NCBI RefSeq assembly: GCF_000820845.2 | Contig: NZ_CBXV010000008.1 | Span: 313,001 to 377,000, forward strand | Source of the DNA: Pyrinomonas methylaliphatogenes | GTDB taxonomy: Bacteria; Acidobacteriota; Blastocatellia; Pyrinomonadales; Pyrinomonadaceae | Direction of reading: 5' to 3' | Length of the DNA stretch: 64,000 bases | Shown: positions 5,227 to 62,842 of the stretch, piece by piece | Numbering within the stretch: position 1 is the first letter of the stretch | How the letters are laid out: each line of letters starts with the position of its first letter | Translations under genes and position numbers: made by a program | Notes under the pieces: model-generated | What the model was told of the DNA's origin: nothing | Databases searched by the model: none | Seen by the model: the letters and a program-made list of their open reading frames with translations, nothing else

Positions 5227-5338
5227 TCTCGAATCGCTCCGCGCCGCTCAGATAGTTCGATCTAAGAGAAGCTCAAATAGCGTCTGCGCGAGACTCTTTA
5301 TCTCGAACCGCTCGGCACCGCTCAGATAGTTCGACCTA
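5227..5338. repeat. Intergenic direct-repeat pair A (38 bp, period 74)
   Basis: Copies at 5227-5264 and 5301-5338 match at 34 of 38 positions and share the core CCGCTCAGATAGTTCGA. They are separated by 36 bp of unrelated sequence. This lies between the receptor terminator and the HD-domain gene. It is one of eight such locus-specific pairs in the window. Confidence 0.8.
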
Positions 5339-30994: not shown

Positions 30995-31138
30995 CGCCAG
31001 CGATGGTAACACTTCCGACCGCCGAGGTTAATGCCGATCGCCGCTTTCGCGCGGAGAGTTTGAACTTGTCGCGCCGCGCCCGCACGTGATAAGTTGCCAA
31101 GCTCTTCACGTTTGAACGCGAGCTAGGGATCGACGATC

Positions 31139-32233
31139 ATGGGTGACACGGTGCGAATTGGCATCATCGGCACGGGGTTCGCCCGCACAACGCAGATTCC
31201 GGCCTTTCTCGCCTGCGAAGGCGCGCGCGTGGTCGCCATCGCGAGCGGCCATCGCGAAAACGCCGCGCGAGTGGCGCAGACGTTCAACATCCCGCACGTC
31301 GCGGATGATTGGCGTGAGCTGGTCGCGCGCGATGACCTCGATCTGGTGAGCATCGTCACGCCGCCCGCGACGCACATGGAGATGGCGCTCGCCGCGCTGG
31401 ATGCAGGCAAGGCGGTGCTCTGCGAAAAGCCGATGGCGATGAATGCCGATGAGACGCGGCGCATGGTCGAGCGCGCCGAACGGACCGGAGCCTTCGCGCT
31501 CATCGATCACGAACTGCGATTCTTGAACGGGCGGCGACGGATGCGCGAACTGGTCCAGAGCGGCGAGATCGGCAGAGTAACCCACATCAAAATCTTCTTT
31601 CGCAACGCGACGCGCGCGCGCCCAGACCGCCCGTGGAACTGGTGGTCGGATGCGAAGCAGGGCGGCGGCGTGCTCGGCGCCATCGGCTCGCACGCCGTGG
31701 ATTCGGTCCGCTGGTTGCTCGGGACGGAAGTCGAAGAAGTCTGCTGCTCGCTTGCGACGCACATCAAAGAGCGGCGCGACGCGCAGACGGGCGCGATGCG
31801 GCCCGTAACGTCCGATGACGAAGCGCTCCTTCTGCTGCGACTAGCGAAGACGGACTTGGTGGAGGACGCGACCGGATTGATTTCGCTGTCGGTGGTCGAA
31901 GCCGGACGGCAGGATCATTTCACCGAGATCTTCGGAACGCGCGGCGCGCTGCGCATCGAAGAGCGTGGCGAGCTTTGGCGCGCGGAACCCAGCGGAGATC
32001 GGTGGGAGATGGTGCCGGTCGAGCCGACCGATCTCGCGCCCGGCTTGCTAGACAACGGCTGGTCGCGCGGTTTTACCGCGTTTGCGCGCGAGATCGTCAA
32101 AGCGTTGCGCGAAGGCCGCCGTTCGGTCGAAGGGGCGGCAACGTTCGCCGATGGGCATCGCGTGCAACTCGTGCTCGACGCGGCGCGGCGCGCGCACGAA
32201 AGCGGCTGCTGGACCAGCGTGAACGGCTCATGA
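31139..32233 (+). CDS. Gfo/Idh/MocA-family NAD(P)-dependent oxidoreductase
   Basis: 364-aa dehydrogenase. The Rossmann fold at the N-terminus reads VRIGIIGTGFARTTQIPAFL, and the family EKP motif is in AVLCEKPMAMNADETR. The C-terminal alpha/beta domain contains GGGVLGAIGSHAVDSVRWL, in which the His is the usual catalytic-site residue. These enzymes oxidise or reduce sugars, inositols and related compounds; the substrate cannot be assigned. Its TGA overlaps the ATG of the hyuA-like gene by 4 bp (ATGA), so the two are translationally coupled. Confidence 0.9.
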   Translation: MGDTVRIGIIGTGFARTTQIPAFLACEGARVVAIASGHRENAARVAQTFNIPHVADDWRELVARDDLDLVSIVTPPATHMEMALAALDAGKAVLCEKPMAMNADETRRMVERAERTGAFALIDHELRFLNGRRRMRELVQSGEIGRVTHIKIFFRNATRARPDRPWNWWSDAKQGGGVLGAIGSHAVDSVRWLLGTEVEEVCCSLATHIKERRDAQTGAMRPVTSDDEALLLLRLAKTDLVEDATGLISLSVVEAGRQDHFTEIFGTRGALRIEERGELWRAEPSGDRWEMVPVEPTDLAPGLLDNGWSRGFTAFAREIVKALREGRRSVEGAATFADGHRVQLVLDAARRAHESGCWTSVNGS

Positions 32234-34299
32234 GCTTAGCTTTTGATCGAAAAGATCGAAAGTTGAACCGCATGCCGAAACTCCCCGCTCGCCAGCCGAA
32301 AAGGCCAAGACGTGGCATCGTTCGCGTGGGCGTCGATGCGGGCGGGACTTTCACGGACTTCATCTACAGCATCGGGAACGAAATCCGCATCTTCAAACTC
32401 CCTTCGACGCCGCACGACCCATCGCGCGCCGTGCTCGAAGGCGTGCGCCGCATCTGCAGTGAGTTGCAGCTTGCGCCCGATGAGATCGAGGTCGTGCATG
32501 GAACGACCGTCGGCACCAACGCGCTCCTTGAAAGGCGCGGCGCGCGCGTCGCGTTCGTCACCACGCACGGGTTCGAGGACCTGCTCATCATCGGGCGGCA
32601 AGCGCGCCCGCACCTCTACGATCTCAACGTCACGCGACCGCAACCGCTCGTCGCCGACGGGTTGAGTCTCGGCGTGCGCGAGCGCACGGCGGCAGACGGC
32701 ACGACGCTCGAACCGCTCGATGATGACCAAGTGAAAGAGATCGTTCGCCGTTTGCGCGAAGCGAAGGTTGAAGCGGTGGCCGTCTGCTTGCTCTTCTCTT
32801 TCGCCAATCCAGCGCACGAACGGAAGATCGCCGCCGCTCTATCCGCACTCGGCGTGCCGCTCTCCGTCTCGCACCGGATCTTGCCCGAGTACCGCGAGTA
32901 CGAACGCGCTTCGACGACGGTGGCTAATGCCTATCTTCAGCCTTTGATGAGCCGTTACATCGAACGGCTCGGGCGCGACGTGCCGCGCTTGCGCATCATG
33001 CAATCTTCGGGCGGAAGCATCGGCGCCGAGACGGCAGCAACCGAACCAGTGCGCACGGTGCTCTCTGGTCCAGCGGGCGGCGTAGTCGGTGCGCTTCATG
33101 TTGCGCGACCGATAGGCGCGCGCGACATCATCACCTTCGACATGGGCGGAACTTCCACCGACGTGGCGCTTTGCGCCGATGGCGAAGTGCACACCACGCG
33201 CGAGATGGTCGTCTCCGGCATCCCCATCGCCATCCCCTGTTTCGAGATTCACACCGTGGGAGCGGGCGGCGGATCGGTCGCGCGCGTGGATCGCGGCGGC
33301 TCTTTGCGCGTCGGTCCAGAATCAGCCGGAGCCGATCCCGGCCCGGCTTGCTACGGGAAGTCGGATCTGCCGACGGTGACCGATGCGAATTTGGTCCTGG
33401 GCCGTTTCGGCGATGGCGCGCTGCTCGGCGGAGCTTTCCCGCTCGATGTCGGACGCGCGCGCTCCGCCATCGAAGCTCTGGCGCGTGAGCTGAGCGCAGC
33501 GGCGAGCCGTAAAGTGAGCGTGGAAGAAGCCGCGCTCGGCATCCTGCGCGTCGTCAACGCGAACATGGAGCGCGCCATTCGCGCCGTCTCCGTGGAACGC
33601 GGCCATGATCCGCGTCGCTTTACGCTCGTCACCTTCGGCGGCGCGGGCGGCCTTCATGCGGTCGCGCTCGCGCGCGCTTTGCGCATCCCGCGCGTCATTG
33701 TGCCGCGCGATCCCGGCGCGCTTTCGGCCTTTGGCGTGCTCGCCGCTGATGTCGTGCGCGAGCAGACACGTACCGTCATGCTCTGCGAAGAGCGCTTCGC
33801 AGACATCGAAGCGCTCTTCCGTGAACTCGAAGAACAGAACGCGCGCGCGCTGGAACGCGAAGGCTTCGCGCGACAAAAGCACACACGCTTCTTGGCCGCG
33901 CGGTACCGCGGACAGTCCTTCGAACTCGAACTTCGTTGGCGTCCGAAGATGAACCCAGCGAAGACCTTCCATCGCGCGCACGAGATGCGCTATGGCTACG
34001 CGCGACGCGGAAGTCCCGTTGAGATCGTAAGCGTGCGCGTGCGTTCCGTTGGAATAGTCGAAAAGATCGCAGAACAAAAAGCGAAAAGGATGCGGGCACG
34101 TCGCGCCAGCGCGCAGCGCGTCAACGTGATCTTCGACGATGGGGCGCGCCCCTGTAACCTTTATCGTCGGGAAGATCTTTCGCCGGGCGCCCGACTTGTC
34201 GCGCCGTGCATTGTCACGGAATACTCTTCGACGACGCTCATCCCCGCGGGCGCGCGCGCGTATGTGGACCGGTTCGGCAATCTCGTCATCGAGCCTTGA
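32230..34299 (+). CDS. hyuA: Hydantoinase/oxoprolinase subunit A
   Basis: 689-aa ATP-dependent amidohydrolase subunit. The N-terminal domain carries VGVDAGGTFTDFIYS and the VVHGTTVGTNALLERRGARV motif. The central domain has the ASKHA-type phosphate motif ITFDMGGTSTDVALC and GPAGGVVGALHVA. Relatives cleave 5-oxoproline or N-methylhydantoin, or carboxylate acetone or acetophenone. The true substrate is unknown. The ATG at 32230 overlaps the previous stop; an ATG at 32272 is possible. It is followed by subunit B after a 217-bp gap that holds a direct-repeat pair. Confidence 0.92.
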   Translation: MSLAFDRKDRKLNRMPKLPARQPKRPRRGIVRVGVDAGGTFTDFIYSIGNEIRIFKLPSTPHDPSRAVLEGVRRICSELQLAPDEIEVVHGTTVGTNALLERRGARVAFVTTHGFEDLLIIGRQARPHLYDLNVTRPQPLVADGLSLGVRERTAADGTTLEPLDDDQVKEIVRRLREAKVEAVAVCLLFSFANPAHERKIAAALSALGVPLSVSHRILPEYREYERASTTVANAYLQPLMSRYIERLGRDVPRLRIMQSSGGSIGAETAATEPVRTVLSGPAGGVVGALHVARPIGARDIITFDMGGTSTDVALCADGEVHTTREMVVSGIPIAIPCFEIHTVGAGGGSVARVDRGGSLRVGPESAGADPGPACYGKSDLPTVTDANLVLGRFGDGALLGGAFPLDVGRARSAIEALARELSAAASRKVSVEEAALGILRVVNANMERAIRAVSVERGHDPRRFTLVTFGGAGGLHAVALARALRIPRVIVPRDPGALSAFGVLAADVVREQTRTVMLCEERFADIEALFRELEEQNARALEREGFARQKHTRFLAARYRGQSFELELRWRPKMNPAKTFHRAHEMRYGYARRGSPVEIVSVRVRSVGIVEKIAEQKAKRMRARRASAQRVNVIFDDGARPCNLYRREDLSPGARLVAPCIVTEYSSTTLIPAGARAYVDRFGNLVIEP

Positions 34300-34397
34300 T
34301 CGCGTCCGAGAGTCGAAAAACGAACTCCGATTTCGGAGAAAGGCTCGAAGCAGCGCGAAGGCATGACCACTCGAAGCGGTTCGCTTCACTGAGGCCC

Positions 34398-34497
34398 GAT
34401 TCGAGCGCAAACGATCCGCGCTCACAGGAAGCAGTCCACGCGCGGTGAGCCCTGCGGGAGCGCAAAGTCGATTCGAGCGCAAACGATCCGCGCTCAC
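34398..34497. repeat. Intergenic direct-repeat pair B (29 bp, period 71)
   Basis: Two identical 29-bp copies, 34398-34426 and 34469-34497, start CGATTCGAGCGCAAACGATC and end CGCGCTCAC. The 42-bp spacer contains a partial third copy (GAGCGCAAA at 34458-34466) and GTGAGC (34445-34450), an inverted match to the GCTCAC end of the first copy. It sits between hyuA and hyuB. Confidence 0.85.
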
Positions 34498-34516
34498 GGA
34501 GAACGGCGAAGGTCAG

Positions 34517-36127
34517 ATGAAGAATTTCGATCCAGTGACGCTTGAAATCTATCGCGCGCTCTACACTTCGGTCGCCGAAGAGATGGGCGCGGCGTTGCGG
34601 CGCGCCGCTTATTCGCCAAACATCAAAGAACGGCGCGACTACTCGTGCGCCATATTTGACGCGCGCGGGCGCGTCATCGCGCAGGGCGATCACATGCCGG
34701 TCCATCTCGGTTCGATGCCGATGGCCGTTGCCGCCGCGCTCAGAGAGAGTGCAATCGAGCCGGGCGACGTGGTTGCGCTCAATGACCCGTTCGCCGGCGG
34801 GACGCATCTGCCCGACATTACGCTCGTCATGCCTGTTGTCGGTGCAAGCGAAGATGGTCGCCGCACTCGAGCGAAGAGCCATCGAACGCTCTTTTACGTC
34901 GCCAATCGCGCGCATCATGCCGATGTCGGGGGCGCGTCGCCGGGGTCGATGGGCGTGGCGGCGGACATCTACGGCGAAGGCGTGCGCATTCCGCCGCTGA
35001 AGATCGTAAGGGGCGGATGGCTCAACGAAGATCTGTTGAAGTTGATCTTCGCCAACGTGCGCGCGGCGGATGAACGGCGCGCCGATCTCGAAGCGCAGAT
35101 CGGATCACTTCGCACCGGAGCTGCGCGCTTGCGCGAAATCATCGGAAGAAACGGCGCGCGCGAAGCGCTCGATTACGCCGAACACCTGATCGCTTATGGC
35201 GCGCGGCTGATGCGCGCAACGATCGCTGCCATCCCCGATGGCGTTTACTGCGCGGAAGATCTTTTGGATGGTGATGGATTGAGTGATGATCCGATTCCGA
35301 TTCGCGTGCGCATCGAGATCCGTGGTGAACGGGCGACGGTCGATTTCACGGGGAGCGCGCCGCAGGTTCGCGGTCCGGTGAATGCGGTCGAAGCGATCAC
35401 GGTCTCCGCCGTCGCTTACGTCTTCCGTTGCTTGATCGAAGAGCGGGACGTGCCGATGAGCGCCGGATTGATGGAGCCGATTCGCGTCATCGCGCCGCGC
35501 GGAACGGTGGTCAACGCCGGTCCACCAGCAGCGGTCGCCGGCGGCAACGTCGAAACGTCGCAGCGCATCGTCGATGTGTTGTTCAAAGCGCTCGCGCAGG
35601 CTCTTCCGGAAAAGATCCCGGCGGCGAGCCAAGGGACGATGAACAACTTGACGATCGGCGGCATGGACCCGCGAACCGGCGCGGAGTTCAGCTACTACGA
35701 GACGATCGCCGGCGGCATGGGCGCGCGCCCGACGCTCGACGGCCTCGATGCCGTGCACACGCACATGACCAACAGCTTGAACACGCCCGCCGAAGCTTTG
35801 GAGTACGCTTATCCGCTGCGCGTGCGCCGCTACGGCGTGCGGCGCGGTTCGGGCGGACGCGGGCGACAGCGCGGCGGCGATGGCGTCGTGCGCGAGATCG
35901 AACTGCTCGCGCCGGCGCGCGTAAGTTTACTGGCCGAACGTCGCCGTCTAGCTCCTTACGGTCTGCGCGGCGGCGAAGATGGCGCGATCGGGCGCGATGT
36001 GATCGTGCGGCGCGATGGCCGCGAAGAGCCGATCGAGGCCAAAGGCACATGGCAACTTGAAGCGGGCGATCGCGTGCGCATCGAAACGCCGGGCGGCGGC
36101 GGATACGGCGAACCTTCCGCTCGATGA
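34517..36127 (+). CDS. hyuB: Hydantoinase/oxoprolinase subunit B
   Basis: 536-aa partner of HyuA. It begins MKNFDPVTLEIYRALYTSVA, the usual HyuB opening. Further motifs are RRDYSCAIFDARGRVIAQGD, GDVVALNDPFAGGTHLPD and ANRAHHADVGGASPGSM, which contain metal-binding and active-site residues, and the closing GGGGYG turn. Together with HyuA it should form an ATP-dependent ring-opening enzyme. An upstream ATG at 34445 would extend into the repeat pair and is rejected; GAAGG precedes the chosen ATG. Confidence 0.93.
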   Translation: MKNFDPVTLEIYRALYTSVAEEMGAALRRAAYSPNIKERRDYSCAIFDARGRVIAQGDHMPVHLGSMPMAVAAALRESAIEPGDVVALNDPFAGGTHLPDITLVMPVVGASEDGRRTRAKSHRTLFYVANRAHHADVGGASPGSMGVAADIYGEGVRIPPLKIVRGGWLNEDLLKLIFANVRAADERRADLEAQIGSLRTGAARLREIIGRNGAREALDYAEHLIAYGARLMRATIAAIPDGVYCAEDLLDGDGLSDDPIPIRVRIEIRGERATVDFTGSAPQVRGPVNAVEAITVSAVAYVFRCLIEERDVPMSAGLMEPIRVIAPRGTVVNAGPPAAVAGGNVETSQRIVDVLFKALAQALPEKIPAASQGTMNNLTIGGMDPRTGAEFSYYETIAGGMGARPTLDGLDAVHTHMTNSLNTPAEALEYAYPLRVRRYGVRRGSGGRGRQRGGDGVVREIELLAPARVSLLAERRRLAPYGLRGGEDGAIGRDVIVRRDGREEPIEAKGTWQLEAGDRVRIETPGGGGYGEPSAR

Positions 36128-36147
36128 AAATGCGCGCGTGATGGAAC

Positions 36148-36235
36148 TGCGAGCGTCAAACCATCTATCGCGGCGAACGCGGCGCGGCAAGCGAAGCTGC
36201 GTTTGATATGCGAGCGTGAAACCATCTATCGCGGC
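36148..36235. repeat. Intergenic direct-repeat pair C (27 bp, period 61)
   Basis: Copies at 36148-36174 and 36209-36235 differ at one base (TGCGAGCGT then C or G, then AAACCATCTATCGCGGC). The spacer is 34 bp. It lies between hyuB and nadE, both on the plus strand. Confidence 0.8.
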
Positions 36236-36348
36236 ACACCCTCGTTGCCGCCAAGAGACTGTTCTGTTCGATTCTTTCTCGCGCTGCGCTTTTTGGATGG
36301 CCGCGCGCCCTTCGTGCTATGCTGCAAGAAAGAGGAGCGATTCCGAAG

Positions 36349-38004
36349 ATGCGCGTCACCATCGCCCAGATAAACACGACCAACGGCGATTACGAAGGCA
36401 ACACCGAGCGGATCATCCGCGCCATCGAACAGGCCAAGCGCGAAAAGTCGGATCTCGTCGTCTTCCCCGAAGTCTGCGTGCAAGGCTATACATCGCTCGA
36501 CTGGTTCCTCGATCCAGACATCGCGCGTTCGGCGCTGCGCCCGCTCGAGCGGATCATTCCGGTCACCGAAGGCATCACGGCCATCGTCGGCACGGTACGC
36601 CCGACCGGCGAAAGCAACGGGCGCAAGCTCTTCAACTCGGCTGCCGTGATCCGCAACCGCGAGCTATTGGGTTTCGCCGACAAAACGCTTCTTCCCGAGT
36701 ACGACGTCTTCGACGATCCGCGATATTTCGAGCCGGCACGCGAACGACGGCTCTTCGAGATCGACGGCACTCCGGTCGGCATCGCCATCTGCGAGGATTT
36801 CTGGAACGACAAGACCTTCTGGCGCGAGCGCCTCTACGACGAAGACCCGACCGATGAACTCATCCGCATGGGAGCGCGGCTGCTCGTTGCGATCAACGCG
36901 TCGCCGTTCAACAAAGGGAAGATGGGCATACGCTGCGCTATGGTTACGCATCGCGCGCGCTTGGCGCACCTGCCGGTCGTCTTCGTCAATCTCGTCGGCG
37001 GCAACGACGGCATCATCTTCGATGGCGCGAGCCTCGTCGTGGACCAGCATGGCGAAACTATCTTGCAAGCTCCGCCGTTCGAAGAGTTCATCGGTACGGT
37101 CGATCTCGATTCCGGCGTGCGACACGAGCGTTGCTTGACGGGCGACGACATCGAGACAGTTCATCAAGCGCTCGTGCTCGGCATACGCGATTACGCGCGC
37201 AAGAATCGCTTCGAGCGCGTCGTCATCGGCATTTCGGGCGGAATAGATTCGGCGGTGGTCGCCGCGCTCGCGTGTGAAGCCGTCGGTCCGGAGAACGTCC
37301 TCGGCGTGATGATGCCGTCGCCCTTCTCTTCGCGCGGCAGCGTCGAAGACGCGCGCGAGTTGGGCCGCCGTCTAGGGATGGAGACGCGCCTTCATCCGAT
37401 CAGCGAAGCCTTTGAAGTGTTGGTGCGCGAATTGAATTTGAAACGCCCGACGCGCGGCGGCGAATCGCTCGCCGCGGAAAACCTTCAATCGCGCCTTCGC
37501 GGTTGCATTCTGATGACCATCTCCAACGCTGAAGGGAGATTGCTCCTTTCGACCGGCAATAAGTCGGAACTAGCGCTCGGTTACTGCACGCTCTACGGAG
37601 ACACCAACGGCGGTTTGGCCGTGCTCGGCGATGTGTTGAAGACGGAAGTCTATGCGCTTGCGCACCACATCAACCGCGAACGCGAATTGATCCCGCGCGC
37701 GATCATCGAAAAGCGCCCGTCAGCGGAGCTTGCGCCGGACCAGTTCGATGATCAAAGCTTGCCACCATACGACAAGCTCGATCCCATCCTGAAGCTCTAC
37801 TTCGAACAGCGCGCGACGCCCGAGGAGATCATCGCCGCAGGCAACGACGCGCGGTTGGTTTACGATGTGCTCAATCGCGTGGAATCGCCGGCCAACGAGT
37901 TCAAGCGGCGACAGCTTCCGCCGACGCTGATCATCTCGCGCAACGCGATCGGCATCGGACGCAGGCGACCCGTCACGCACCGCTATCGCCGCGTGATGGA
38001 ATGA
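36349..38004 (+). CDS. nadE: Glutamine-dependent NAD+ synthetase
   Basis: 551-aa two-domain enzyme for the last step of NAD synthesis. The N-terminal nitrilase-type glutaminase domain has the catalytic Glu in LVVFPEVCVQGY, Lys in ADKTLLPEYDVF and Cys in GIAICEDFWND. The C-terminal synthetase has the PP-loop VIGISGGIDSAVVAAL and SNAEGRLLLSTGNKSELALG. I start at the ATG 36349, preceded by GAGGAG and giving MRVTIAQINTTNGDY; the ATG at 36319 would add ten residues that the family lacks. It stands downstream of hyuB after repeat pair C. Confidence 0.97.
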   Translation: MRVTIAQINTTNGDYEGNTERIIRAIEQAKREKSDLVVFPEVCVQGYTSLDWFLDPDIARSALRPLERIIPVTEGITAIVGTVRPTGESNGRKLFNSAAVIRNRELLGFADKTLLPEYDVFDDPRYFEPARERRLFEIDGTPVGIAICEDFWNDKTFWRERLYDEDPTDELIRMGARLLVAINASPFNKGKMGIRCAMVTHRARLAHLPVVFVNLVGGNDGIIFDGASLVVDQHGETILQAPPFEEFIGTVDLDSGVRHERCLTGDDIETVHQALVLGIRDYARKNRFERVVIGISGGIDSAVVAALACEAVGPENVLGVMMPSPFSSRGSVEDARELGRRLGMETRLHPISEAFEVLVRELNLKRPTRGGESLAAENLQSRLRGCILMTISNAEGRLLLSTGNKSELALGYCTLYGDTNGGLAVLGDVLKTEVYALAHHINRERELIPRAIIEKRPSAELAPDQFDDQSLPPYDKLDPILKLYFEQRATPEEIIAAGNDARLVYDVLNRVESPANEFKRRQLPPTLIISRNAIGIGRRRPVTHRYRRVME

Positions 38005-38122
38005 AAAATCGCCCCGAAGTTCGGTCCGGCAGGTGCGAGCAATCGTCGCATGATCGAAGACGATCCCCGCCTCGGCGCGCACGCAGGCGATCAGATCAAC
38101 CGAAGACGCGCCAAACCGTCGC

Positions 38123-38233
38123 CTGCCGTTCCTCGCTTGCTCTTCGCGCGCGCCGCAGCTAGGCCGCACTGACGGCGGAACATCTTTGATGCGCACTGCC
38201 GTTTCTCGCTTGCTCTTCGCGCGCTGCAGCTAG
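38123..38233. repeat. Intergenic direct-repeat pair D (about 39 bp, period 73)
   Basis: Copies at 38123-38162 and 38196-38233 share CTCGCTTGCTCTTCGCGCG and end GCAGCTAG; they differ by two substitutions and a 2-bp gap. The spacer is 33 bp. It lies between the convergent nadE and ttcA genes. Confidence 0.78.
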
Positions 38234-38234
38234 C

Positions 38235-39092
38235 TCATCTGCTCAACTGGGCCAGTTCGGTAGCCCCCTCTTCGTTGAGGCCGAGCGCTGCGTCGAGCTC
38301 GGCTTCGATGTCTCCGGTGACGGGAGCGAACCGTTTGAAATCGTAGAGTTTGGTGTCGAGAAGATGCGACGGCGTGACGTTGCCGAGCGCCGTCAGCATC
38401 GAGCTGCGGATGTGCGGGATCTCGCGCTCGAGTTCGCCGATCAGGCGCTTGATGCGCGCGCGCTTCAAATTCTGCTGCGAGCCGCACAGGTCGCACGGGA
38501 TGATCGGGAAGTTCTTCTCGGCGGCGAACTCGGCGATGTCGCGTTCGCGGCAGTAAGCGAGCGGGCGGATGATCGTGTTTCTGCCGTCATCGGAGCGCAG
38601 CACGGGCGGCATCGCTTTGAGTTGCCCGATGAAGAAGAGGTTGAGCAAGAAGGTCGTGATGATGTCGTCGGCATGATGGCCCAGCGCGATCTTCGAACAA
38701 CCCTCTTCCACCGCCGTTTGATAGAGGATGCCGCGCCGCAGGCGCGAGCAGACCGAACAATAAGTTTTGCCTTCGGGCACGAGCCGCTTGACGATCGAGT
38801 AGGTGTCACGTTCGACGATGCGAAAGGGCACGCCGCGCGCGCTCAAGTACTCGGGAAGCACGTGCTTGGGAAAACCGGGCTGCCCCTGATCGAGATTGAC
38901 GGCGAGGATGTCGAACTTGACGGGCGCGCGCTTCTGTACGTCGAGCAGCAGATCGAGCATCGTGTAGCTGTCCTTGCCGCCCGACAGGCAGACCATCACG
39001 CGGTCGCCCGACTCGATCATGTTGAAGTCTTCGATGGCTTCGCCCATTTGGCGAAGCAGCTTGGTTTTGATTTTGCTTTCGACGAACATCAC
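38235..39092 (-). CDS. ttcA: tRNA 2-thiocytidine synthetase TtcA
   Basis: Thiolates C32 of some tRNAs using ATP and an iron-sulfur cluster. The 285-aa protein has the PP-loop [17 protein letters not shown], the first cysteine pair in [14 protein letters not shown], and the [12 protein letters not shown] motif typical of Ttc[20 protein letters not shown] is the conserved ATPase-side block. Cytoplasmic. The start is [16 protein letters not shown] is the only purine-rich stretch upstream. Repeat pair D lies just beyond its stop and pair E upstream of its start. Confidence 0.95.
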
Positions 39093-39160
39093 ACTGCCTT
39101 TCGGAGCCTGCGCTCCAACACAAGATTTTGTCGGAGAAGCGCGCGCAAAAGCAACCCGGC

Positions 39161-39259
39161 GACTGCACGGATGCGAGGTGCGATCAGCATCAATCTAAGC
39201 TAACCTGAAGCTGGATGCTTTGTAAGCCGACTGCACGGATGCGAGATGCGACCAGCATC
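39161..39259. repeat. Intergenic direct-repeat pair E (31 bp, period 68)
   Basis: Copies at 39161-39191 and 39229-39259 match at 29 of 31 positions (GACTGCACGGATGCGAG then RTGCGAYCAGCATC). The 37-bp spacer includes GGATGC, inverted to the GCATC end of the first copy. It lies between ttcA and the dienelactone hydrolase gene. Confidence 0.82.
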
Positions 39260-39316
39260 CCGTTTGGAAGTTGCTCGCTTACCAAGATAGGAGATGGCTG
39301 GTCGCTCGAAGTGATC

Positions 39317-40006
39317 TCAAGCTTTTTGTTGCAGATGCCGACGGAAGAACTCGATGGTGCGCCGCCACGCATCTTCCGCCGCCTCGCGGTTGTAGACTTC
39401 GGGGCGATCGTCGTTGAAGAAGGCGTGATCGGCGTCCTTGTAGATGTGGATCTCAACCTGTTTGCCGAGCTCTTTCAAGCGCCGTTCGAGCTCGCGCGCC
39501 GCTTCCGGCGTGACGAACGTATCGCGCTCGGCATATAGCCCGAGCATCGGCGCCTCGAGCTTTTCGAGTTCCGGTTTGACGTTAGGATGGCCGCCGTAGA
39601 AGACGACGCACGCGCCCACTTGCGGGTTCTTCGTCGCGGCGTAGAGCGAGAGCGCGCCGCCCATGCAGAAGCCGACGGTGCCGACCTTGCTGCTCGTCAC
39701 CGCCGGATGATTGAGCAAGTACGAGATCGCGCCGCGCAAGTCCTTCTCCGTTTCGGCGATGTTCATCGCCATCATCAGTTTGCCCGCTTCGTCGGGCGAT
39801 TTCGTCGTCTTGCCGTGATAAAGATCGGGCGCGAGCGCGACGAAGCCCTCTTCGGCGAAACGATCGGCCACGCGCTTGATGTGCGGCACAAGCCCCCACC
39901 ACTCTTGAATGACGATGACGCCCGGCCCTTTGCCCGAAGCCGGGACGGCTAAGTAGCCTTCCGTCTGTTTGCCGTTGCTTTGAAACTGGACCATCTCTCC
40001 TGCCAT
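39317..40006 (-). CDS. Dienelactone hydrolase-family protein
   Basis: 229-aa alpha/beta hydrolase. The nucleophile Cys lies in VGFCMGGALSLYAA, the usual dienelactone-hydrolase replacement for Ser. The catalytic Asp is in GLYAERDTFVTPEAA and the His in YKDADHAFFNDDRPE. IQEWWGLVPHIKRVADRFAEEG is the family oxyanion-side block. Many such enzymes have promiscuous carboxylesterase activity; a role in aromatic degradation cannot be inferred without partner genes. GGAGG is 5 bp before the ATG at 40006. A TTG four codons upstream is an unlikely start. Confidence 0.92.
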   Translation of the reverse strand: MAGEMVQFQSNGKQTEGYLAVPASGKGPGVIVIQEWWGLVPHIKRVADRFAEEGFVALAPDLYHGKTTKSPDEAGKLMMAMNIAETEKDLRGAISYLLNHPAVTSSKVGTVGFCMGGALSLYAATKNPQVGACVVFYGGHPNVKPELEKLEAPMLGLYAERDTFVTPEAARELERRLKELGKQVEIHIYKDADHAFFNDDRPEVYNREAAEDAWRRTIEFFRRHLQQKA

Positions 40007-40165
40007 AGCTTCCTCCAAAAGTCGAACGGTTTGACTGCCAAAGGTGTCCTGCGCAAAACTTCAAGCTTCTACTGTCGCGCTCTCATGCGGCGCTCGCGAC
40101 GAGCGCGGCCAGAGCACGGCTAGGCTCACGGAATTATTGAACAAACAAACTTCCATCGAGGTCAA

Positions 40166-45175: not shown

Positions 45176-45271
45176 GTATCGCTACTTCGGATGTCGGATC
45201 AGCTTCAGCCGACGCCGCCGCTTCGTTCGTCTCGACTCTCTCTCGTATCGCTACCTCGGATATCGGATCAA
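45176..45271. repeat. Intergenic direct-repeat pair F (27 bp, period 69)
   Basis: Copies at 45176-45202 and 45245-45271 match at 24 of 27 positions (GTATCGCTAC then YTCGGATRTCGGATCAR). All three differences are transitions. The spacer is 42 bp. It lies between the convergent MscS and transglutaminase-like genes. Confidence 0.8.
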
Positions 45272-51845: not shown

Positions 51846-51938
51846 ATGGGCCGCAAGACCTCTGGCGATGTCGGGAGCGTCATTCGCGCGTCGCCTCGAG
51901 GATCGATCCTCTCATACATCATCTTCGCCCTCGATTGA
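51846..51938 (+). CDS. Possible small ORF after the rhodanese gene
   Basis: A 30-codon frame starts 22 bp after the rhodanese stop with a good ribosome site (CAGGAGG, 7 bp before ATG). The product begins MGRKTSGDVGSVIRASP and ends in a hydrophobic ILSYIIFALD. It also ends in UGA. The second half of the frame overlaps the first copy of repeat pair G, so it could be a decayed remnant. No homology is claimed. Confidence 0.3.
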   Translation: MGRKTSGDVGSVIRASPRGSILSYIIFALD

Positions 51939-51993
51939 TCGAGCGACGCGGCGTTGGTCTCTTTCGAGCGATCTTCTCACGCATCATCTTCGC
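51901..51993. repeat. Intergenic direct-repeat pair G (29 bp, period 64)
   Basis: Copies at 51901-51929 and 51965-51993 match at 25 of 29 positions and share CATCATCTTCGCC. The spacer is 35 bp. It lies between the selenoprotein and merR. Confidence 0.75.
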
Positions 51994-52106
51994 CGCCGGG
52001 AGATCAAGCGGCCCCCTGCACGCTTTATATCACCGGCCCCCTGTGCACTCCGGCAGTCACCAACGCTAACCGCCTTGGCTCGCGCTTGCCACCGAGAACA
52101 GAGGGC

Positions 52107-52612: not shown

Positions 52613-53640
52613 AAACGCCGGATCGTGAAAAAATCTTCGCTTTCGGTTCGGTCGTCGCCGCCGTTGCGGCTAGCCTGTGCTGTCTTGCGCCGCTACTGTT
52701 TGCCCTCTTCGGGCTTGGCGCATTCAGCGCCGCTGTCACCTTTGAAGCCGCGCGGCCATATTTTCTAACACTTGCTGCGCTGCTTTTAGCGGGCGGATTC
52801 CTCTACAGCTTTCGGTCGCGTAAAACCGCCTCTGAAAAAGCCGACGGTTGCTGCGCGACTGGACCGAAGGGATCGACTCATCTCGGATTGTGGCTCGCCA
52901 TCTTGGCCATGATTGCAGCGGCGCTTGCGCCCTACTATGCCGGCGCGCTCTTCCACCGATTGAAGATCGGAGAGAGGCGCAATTCGCTATTGCAAGCGAG
53001 CGCCGGAGGGCCTTCTGCCGCCGCGCAAGATTCTTGCTATGCGACCACGCGCCAAGCCGAACTCGAAGAGCAGACCGTCACATCATCCGATGCTTGTTGT
53101 GCAACTACGCGAAAAGGAGAGGCATCCGTGACCCAATCATCCACCGCCATCAGCTACTCGAAGGACTTGACAGATCTTAAAGAGGAGTTCAACCGCGACA
53201 AAGGCAAGATCAGGCTCGTCGCGCTGCTTTCGCCGACTTGTCCGGGATGCGCCGGACGCGGAGCAAGCGAACTGCGCGACAAAGTCCTTGCGAAAATCAA
53301 GAGCGAAGATCTGCGAATCTACGTCGTGTGGGAGCCGTGTCTTCCGACCGACGATGAGATGAAAGTCCCGGCAGCAGCAGCCCGTTTGAATGACGCGCGC
53401 GTGCGCCACTACTGGGACGCGCGCGGCGAATTGAGAGGCGTCTATCAGCGGTTGATGAAGATGAGCGAGCCCGCGTGGGACGTTTACTACGTTTACGACC
53501 GCGACGTTGAATGGCGGGCGGAGCCGCCGACGCCGAACCATTATATGCACCAACTTTGCACGCTGCCACCGGAGCTTCTGCTCGACGGCGACCGACTTGC
53601 AGCAAAAGTAAACGCGATGCTTCAAGAAGGAGCGCGCTGA
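52609..53640 (+). CDS. MerT-like mercuric transporter fused to a thioredoxin-like domain
   Basis: 343-aa membrane protein. The MerT-like part (1-118) has spans near 11-37, 50-66 and 92-115, with the vicinal pair C24-C25 in ASLCCLAPLLFALFGLG. A linker follows with three short Cys repeats: DGCCATGPKG (79-88), DSCYATTRQA (141-150) and DACCATTRKG (161-170). The C-terminal thioredoxin-like domain (about 185-340) has C211-x2-C214 in LLSPTCPGCAGRG. MerT imports Hg(II); the linker cysteines and thioredoxin domain may hand the metal on or keep thiols reduced. The GTG start lies in a GGAGGAG run and overlaps merR. Confidence 0.82.
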   Translation: MKTPDREKIFAFGSVVAAVAASLCCLAPLLFALFGLGAFSAAVTFEAARPYFLTLAALLLAGGFLYSFRSRKTASEKADGCCATGPKGSTHLGLWLAILAMIAAALAPYYAGALFHRLKIGERRNSLLQASAGGPSAAAQDSCYATTRQAELEEQTVTSSDACCATTRKGEASVTQSSTAISYSKDLTDLKEEFNRDKGKIRLVALLSPTCPGCAGRGASELRDKVLAKIKSEDLRIYVVWEPCLPTDDEMKVPAAAARLNDARVRHYWDARGELRGVYQRLMKMSEPAWDVYYVYDRDVEWRAEPPTPNHYMHQLCTLPPELLLDGDRLAAKVNAMLQEGAR

Positions 53641-62753: not shown

Positions 62754-62842
62754 CGCCCACAGAGAGCGCTTTGCGCCGCTCATCGAGCACGCATCGACCG
62801 CGCCGCTCGATCATCCCCCGCCCACAGAGAGCGCCTTGCGCC
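62754..62842. repeat. Intergenic direct-repeat pair H (24 bp, period 65)
   Basis: Copies at 62754-62777 and 62819-62842 differ at one base (CGCCCACAGAGAGCGC then Y then TTGCGCC). The 41-bp spacer itself holds two GCCGCTC pieces. It lies between the divergent ECF sigma and flippase-like genes, in or near their promoters. Confidence 0.8.

Follow-up and report, generated by a model that had tools for sequence, protein, structure and literature searches.

Direct-Repeat Pairs of CRISPR-Like Dimensions in Pyrinomonas methylaliphatogenes: Probable Products of Off-Target Cas1-Cas2 Integration

Introduction

What placed two identical 29-bp direct repeats, designated here pair B, between a hyuA-like and a hyuB-like gene of Pyrinomonas methylaliphatogenes K22? 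The pair is found in a stretch of 64,000 nucleotides (positions 313,001 to 377,000 of contig NZ_CBXV010000008.1, assembly GCF_000820845.2), called the window, to which all coordinates given with no prefix refer. Pair B is very probably an ectopic unit resembling those of CRISPR (clustered regularly interspaced short palindromic repeats) arrays, generated by off-target integration in which Cas1-Cas2 would have acted as the integrase. The evidence comes from the dimensions of numerous similar pairs in the same genome, the origin of some of their spacers, and the sister genome.

The Repeat Pair between hyuA and hyuB

The two copies of pair B start 72 bp apart and leave 43 bp in between. An earlier note on this DNA had reported them from position 34398, one base off the actual start (34397), and their identity over 29 bp was confirmed. 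The pair is beyond chance, since a first-order Markov sequence modelled on 10 loci contains no local direct repeat of score at least 16 in 239 kb and the 21-bp core of the repeat occurs exactly at only two places genome-wide (three others have 3 mismatches). A copying event, as the note had proposed, did produce pair B. The repeat holds a hairpin (GAGCGC/GCGCTC). Pair B is not part of a canonical CRISPR array: the search of the genome with the core did not find many copies of one shared repeat, and the adjoining genes are hyuA and hyuB, not cas genes.

The gap housing pair B extends over 217 bp, from the hyuA stop (34299) to the hyuB ATG (34517). The two genes are usually close together, as had been supposed. 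A tblastn comparison covered 22 loci and located both genes in 10 of them; a 217-bp gap is present only in the window genome and in G001, the second genome of the genus. The distances in the other eight loci are -4 (5 loci, two probably the same contig), -1, 2 and 104, and among the readable loci the 217-bp gap is peculiar to the genus. G001 carries the same repeat-spacer-repeat arrangement, with the spacer at 95% identity and 2 differences between its own two copies. This contradicts the recent origin that the identical copies had suggested: the insertion predates the split between the window genome and G001, because the site is filled in G001, unless the whole region was exchanged later. Identity to G001 is about 95–97% over most of 31131-40016 and about 76–88% on either side, which suggests recent exchange or strong constraint of this block.

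A Genome-Wide Set of Pairs

The window was scanned for ungapped local direct repeats with a score of at least 17 at a distance (d) of 20–400 bp. Eight pairs were found, all with d of 61–74 and spacers of 34–44 bp, and each with a different sequence. The scan was applied with a score of 18 to a sample of 1,217,952 unmasked bases, 32% of the K22 genome (3,788,560 bp in 16 contigs). Canonical arrays (L048 15200-18850, L050 from 15700), overlapping tandem repeats and a lysine-rich repetitive gene in L025 (8900-9200) were removed before counting. The sample has 159 non-overlapping repeats at d 20–300, 128 of which are pairs at d 55–76. These correspond to 119 sites or 98 per Mb, which extrapolates to about 370 genome-wide. 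The repeat sequence differs at nearly every site, and a few sites carry three to five repeats (L066:4248-4512, L023:9931, L048:19207). The copies are identical in 28 of the 128 pairs and diverged in the rest, which suggests a mixture of older and younger insertions. One pair of different form (L300:15752, repeat 58, spacer 5) was left out wherever 127 pairs are used.

The positions of pairs relative to genes were counted in the first 818 kb of the sample, as were the hairpins and, initially, the end motifs described below. According to a simple coding model, 59 of the first 71 pairs are intergenic, 9 lie across a gene edge and 3 are coding, whereas only 10.6% of random 100-bp segments are intergenic. 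Convergent genes flank more of the intergenic pairs in these 818 kb than expected from the gaps of at least 150 bp (15/55 vs 28/233).

Such pairs are much rarer in other organisms. Twelve relatives, about 100 kb each and eight of them with cas1, have together 8 pairs in 1,197 kb, compared with the 128 in 1,218 kb of the own genome. The four relatives lacking cas1 account for 5 pairs in 400 kb and seven with cas1 for 3 in 697 kb; the remaining cas1-bearing genome, G019, has 0 in 100 kb after removal of its true array (L252 11000-15000). Seventy-seven loci of more distant organisms yielded 10 pairs in 1,311 kb. In G001, 4 pairs at d 55–80, pair B included, were found in 200 kb of partly overlapping loci.

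Resident CRISPR Systems and Size Classes

The genome has two cas1 genes, each adjoining cas2 and an array; it thus encodes the Cas1-Cas2 that ectopic integration would require. The type III-A locus on contig C5 has Csm1 to Csm4, then a Cas4g/Cas1g fusion with cas2, upstream of an array with 49 copies of a 36-bp repeat (mean period 72.52, standard deviation 1.06, 48 periods). The type I-B locus on C9 codes, ahead of its array, Cas6, Cas7, Cas5, Cas3, Cas4, Cas1b, Cas2 and a Cas8b-like protein that is below the family cut-off. Its array, with a 30-bp repeat and a mean period of 66.5 (10 periods), is located at the C9 end and continues at the C5 start. The K22 genome paper (PMC4644332) reports 15 “CRISPR repeats” and names the abundance of CRISPR as a possible contributor to the scaffold junctions; the passages available from it make no mention of ectopic units.

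A mixture fit to the 127 ectopic periods gave three components at 60.9, 66.7 and 72.4 bp. The main peaks of a four-component fit are at 61.0, 66.5 and 72.5, and its lower Bayesian information criterion is partly due to one component collapsing on the exact value 61. The two longer class periods (66.5 and 72.5) match those of the resident arrays (66.5 and 72.52). In high-scoring pairs the median repeat length is 29 for d 60–62 (n=11), 30 for d 63–69 (n=42) and 36 for d 70–75 (n=26), the difference between the last two groups having P=3e-7. Two of the three classes thus have repeats and spacers as long as those of the resident systems, since both periods and repeat medians agree. The canonical I-B and III-A arrays share these dimensions with the ectopic pairs, but have shared repeats, a leader and adjacent cas genes, none of which is found with the pairs.

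The III-A locus itself holds two ectopic pairs, both between its cas1 and cas2 genes (L048:14378-14590). Shortly past the III-A array, L048:19085-19400 has several related repeats (ACTTTCAACCTA...) with periods of 57–67, perhaps a young neo-array.

Origin of Spacers, Empty Sites and Target Signals

Seven of the 128 spacers match distant chromosomal DNA over at least 31 nt and an eighth matches at 32/36 end to end. The matches of these self-derived spacers stop at the repeat borders, as seen in the 32% of the genome searched. Eight spacers are thus nearly full-length copies of DNA from other parts of the own chromosome, trimmed to spacer length. One, in a 72-bp-class pair that lies between cas1 and cas2, has its donor sequence in the window (53034-53071). 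Among neighbouring control segments 10 of 489 had a match, and the four of at least 34 nt all join one duplicated L024/L052 stretch. No source of the pair B spacer was found elsewhere in the 1.22-Mb sample, and the 47 spacers of the III-A array have no match longer than 18 nt outside the array in the first 818 kb of that sample. A protospacer-adjacent motif was looked for by eye at the self-derived sources, which were too few, and of too uncertain orientation, for any claim.

Comparison with close relatives, proposed in the earlier note as a check on the hyuA-hyuB gap, did lead to the answer, though at the neighbouring pair at 36148 and not at pair B. At 36148, G001 keeps one repeat and lacks exactly 61 bp, corresponding to one repeat plus the spacer, with 97% identity over the stretch. 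The duplicated target thus pre-existed there, and probably also at 39160, where G001 has one repeat-like copy (6-bp difference) and 62 of 68 bp are missing. The latter is graded as a probable empty site because its ungapped match (18/32) is not above the shuffled maximum. Pairs in L019 and L023, where the G001 gaps are 103 to 462 bp shorter and unalignable, were not counted as empty sites.

GAA[AG] is present at the repeat ends in 30 of 118 sites vs 12.5 expected, the largest of 1000 controls being 24. The ends of the canonical repeats have it too (GATTGAAAC, TTGAAGG). In a search for a common target motif by expectation-maximisation (EM), the 61-bp class scored 10.99 vs 7.77 for its controls (n=12), though three members are repeat units of a single mini-array. 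Coordinates of the features in the window are listed in Table 1.

Table 1. Pair B, its flanking genes, the other repeat pairs and a spacer donor in the window.
Feature	Coordinates	Strand	Remarks
Pair B repeat copy 1	34397..34425	+	29 bp identical to copy 2; period-72 class
Pair B inserted spacer	34426..34468	+	About 36-43 bp, border uncertain
Pair B repeat copy 2	34469..34497	+	Ends 19 bp upstream of hyuB ATG
hyuA-like gene	32326..34299 (start approximate)	+	Open reading frame, coding model, tblastn to relatives
hyuB-like gene	34517..36127	+	Open reading frame; matches in 31/40 relatives
72-bp-class pair	5227..5338	+	d=74, 38-bp repeats
61-bp-class pair	36148..36235	+	27-bp repeats 36148-36174 and 36209-36235, spacer 34; empty in G001
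72-bp-class pair	38123..38224	+	d=73, 29-bp repeats; G001 not alignable
66-bp-class pair	39160..39259	+	d=68, 32-bp repeats; probably empty in G001
Repeat pair	45176..45270	+	d=69, 26-bp repeats
Repeat pair	51904..51994	+	d=65, 26-bp repeats; score 17, under the count cut of 18
Repeat pair	62754..62842	+	d=65, 24-bp repeats
Chromosomal donor sequence	53034..53071	+	Copied at 36/38 positions in the spacer at L048:14551-14588, contig C5

A Model for the Formation of the Pairs and Its Rivals

During normal adaptation the prespacer ends are joined to both strands at the repeat edges and fill-in duplicates the repeat. In the model favoured here, Cas1-Cas2 would take a piece of DNA of about 36 bp, bypass the leader end of the array and insert it in the hyuA-hyuB gap, attacking the two strands at positions staggered by about 36 bp. 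Gap filling would then turn the single-copy target into two direct repeats flanking a new spacer. The original duplication at pair B was probably about 36 bp and would have decayed to 29 identical bp; beyond these, 4 of 7 flanking positions match when G001 bases are used (comparison by eye, suggestive only). With its period of 72, pair B would fit the III-A integrase with the Cas4-Cas1 fusion. The same process would have operated at about 98 sites per Mb in three size classes, most insertions being neutral scars that survive between genes where they are harmless, so that the intergenic enrichment would reflect survival bias.

Direct orientation and short distance of the copies are also what local replication slippage or template switching would give, by duplicating a nearby stretch with copies about 70 bp apart. 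The spacer of pair B does contain, as stated in the earlier note, the 9-bp fragment GAGCGCAAA at 34458-34466, a partial third copy of the repeat (P about 0.008 taken alone), and GTGAGC at 34445-34450, a nesting that had suggested repeated copying. Of the 127 pairs (repeat <50 bp), 2 vs 0.82 expected have a word of at least 9 bp shared between repeat and spacer, and 3 vs 4.2 one of at least 8. Since these counts are near expectation the nesting is not a trait of the set and stays within chance. Slippage would moreover not yield fixed classes of spacing that coincide with the periods of the resident arrays, spacers from far away or an unrelated insert at an empty site, and the pattern is not seen in comparable genomes. 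The self-derived spacers and class lengths largely refute this explanation, which is very unlikely for pair B. A small mobile element (miniature inverted-repeat transposable element, casposon remnant or similar) leaving a long target-site duplication would account for an insert between duplicated target copies and for the known empty site. It is scarcely probable: the 128 spacers searched against the own sample have no common sequence and only 9 find matches there, each at a different place, and no transposase active on the inserts was seen. Casposon target duplications are of about 14–15 bp, compared with 28–36 bp here.

Genuine CRISPR arrays, acquired horizontally from many systems and then decayed, would explain the CRISPR-like lengths of repeats and spacers and the few sites with three to five repeats. 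They leave unexplained that nearly every site has a repeat of its own and that the “repeat” at 36148 pre-exists in G001 as ordinary intergenic DNA, and this origin, too, has a very low probability for pair B; L066:4248-4512 may be a remainder of this kind, from an I-E-like system since lost. Pair B could finally have a regulatory role, as a tandem operator or attenuator in the hyuA-hyuB gap; its end 19 bp before the hyuB start and its conservation in G001 would allow this. The RNA folding analysis that had been recommended does not favour an RNA structure: 160 of 200 shuffled versions of the segment 34380-34516 equal or surpass its folding (z +0.91). Most relatives lack any such gap and the same architecture recurs with unrelated sequences at more than 100 unrelated places, making this explanation extremely improbable.

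Several observations weigh against off-target integration as the source of the pairs. Only one exact empty site was obtained from the 19 pairs compared with G001, along with one probable (39160) and one filled (pair B); 7 others have aligning flanks and an unalignable gap and 9 lack colinear flanks. The identity in pair B, 29 bp, is shorter than 36. No foreign source has been identified: the core of one spacer had 0 matches in IMG/VR, with very little searching for foreign sources overall, and pair B with its flanks (a 301-bp stretch) found no match in phage records. The EM search found no motif above controls in the 66- and 72-bp classes beyond the end signal, and hairpins were rejected as target signal, stems of at least 6 being present in 2 of 61 sites vs 3.6 expected. 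Presence of cas1 is not a sufficient cause, as eight cas1-bearing relatives do not have the pattern; Pyrinomonas must therefore differ in some further feature. For the 61-bp class an integrase is lacking in the genome, where two cas1 genes but no third and no Cse1 were found, and for this reason a lost third system must be assumed. The dimensions of this class, 28–29 plus 32–33, are those of type I-E systems. The five-repeat mini-array at L066:4248-4512 (C2:64248-64512) has repeats of about 29 bp and mostly 61-bp periods, which is I-E-like in size, and one of its spacers is a 31/32 self match. It perhaps records the lost I-E-like system.

Relation to Known Integration Systems

Nivala, Shipman and Church reportedly described in 2018 off-target integration by Cas1-Cas2 of E. 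coli, with “spontaneous CRISPR loci generation”; their work is said to discuss natural examples as well. According to passages on this E. coli work, insertion takes place into non-array regions, and Cas1-Cas2 was overexpressed (PMC11788318). The Pyrinomonas pairs are alike in that an insert of spacer size lies away from the array and the genomic target has been duplicated into a new repeat. They differ in that the genome is unmanipulated, the sites number about 98 per Mb, many insertions are old, and the size classes are those of two resident systems and of a third one. In PMC6895254, Cas1-Cas2 of S. thermophilus carries out off-target half-site integration in vitro at sites resembling the leader-repeat junction, and a distance ruler sets the second attack. 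Such a ruler predicts class-specific repeat lengths, as found in Pyrinomonas, even if the S. thermophilus system is of type II-A and was studied on a plasmid in the test tube, whereas here I-B, III-A and an absent third system would have acted on the chromosome. Ectopic spacer acquisition described for Streptococcus CRISPR arrays (PMC7999890, PMC5338259) likewise uses an unusual site, but inside an existing array rather than in chromosomal DNA unrelated to it. The literature searched, which leaves most subscription journals uncovered, contained no account of a natural genome with hundreds of such insertions. Off-target integration is known from experiments; what would be new, judging from that literature, is its scale in a natural genome.

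We consider it likely that the adaptation machinery of Pyrinomonas is promiscuous by nature and works as an insertional mutator across the whole genome, with two resident integrases and a lost third having produced, over a long period, several hundred intergenic neo-CRISPR units, some of which grew into small multi-spacer arrays with their own repeats. If so, one genome would hold more than 100 natural off-target integration events of three CRISPR systems, in which lengths, targets and some donors can be read. It would be a fossil record of the birth of new arrays and of the targets and donors that Cas1-Cas2 accepts in nature, making integration fidelity, the limits that confine integration to the array, array birth from errors and tolerance of self-derived spacers testable in the wild. 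Short “CRISPR arrays” called by software might then be integration scars with no immune role, and odd intergenic repeat pairs otherwise taken as regulatory elements would be accounted for.

Additional Features of the Genome

Between the csm genes and Cas4g/Cas1g, L048:4743-12661 (C5:104743-112661) codes a 1008-aa protein without any match in NCBIfam, together with a helicase of 1634 aa that is weakly similar to DpdJ and DECH helicases. Within the III-A locus the two may form a defence module that has gone unrecognised. The lysine/alanine-rich repetitive stretch at L025:8971-9103 reads from the DNA as a histone-H1-like tail.
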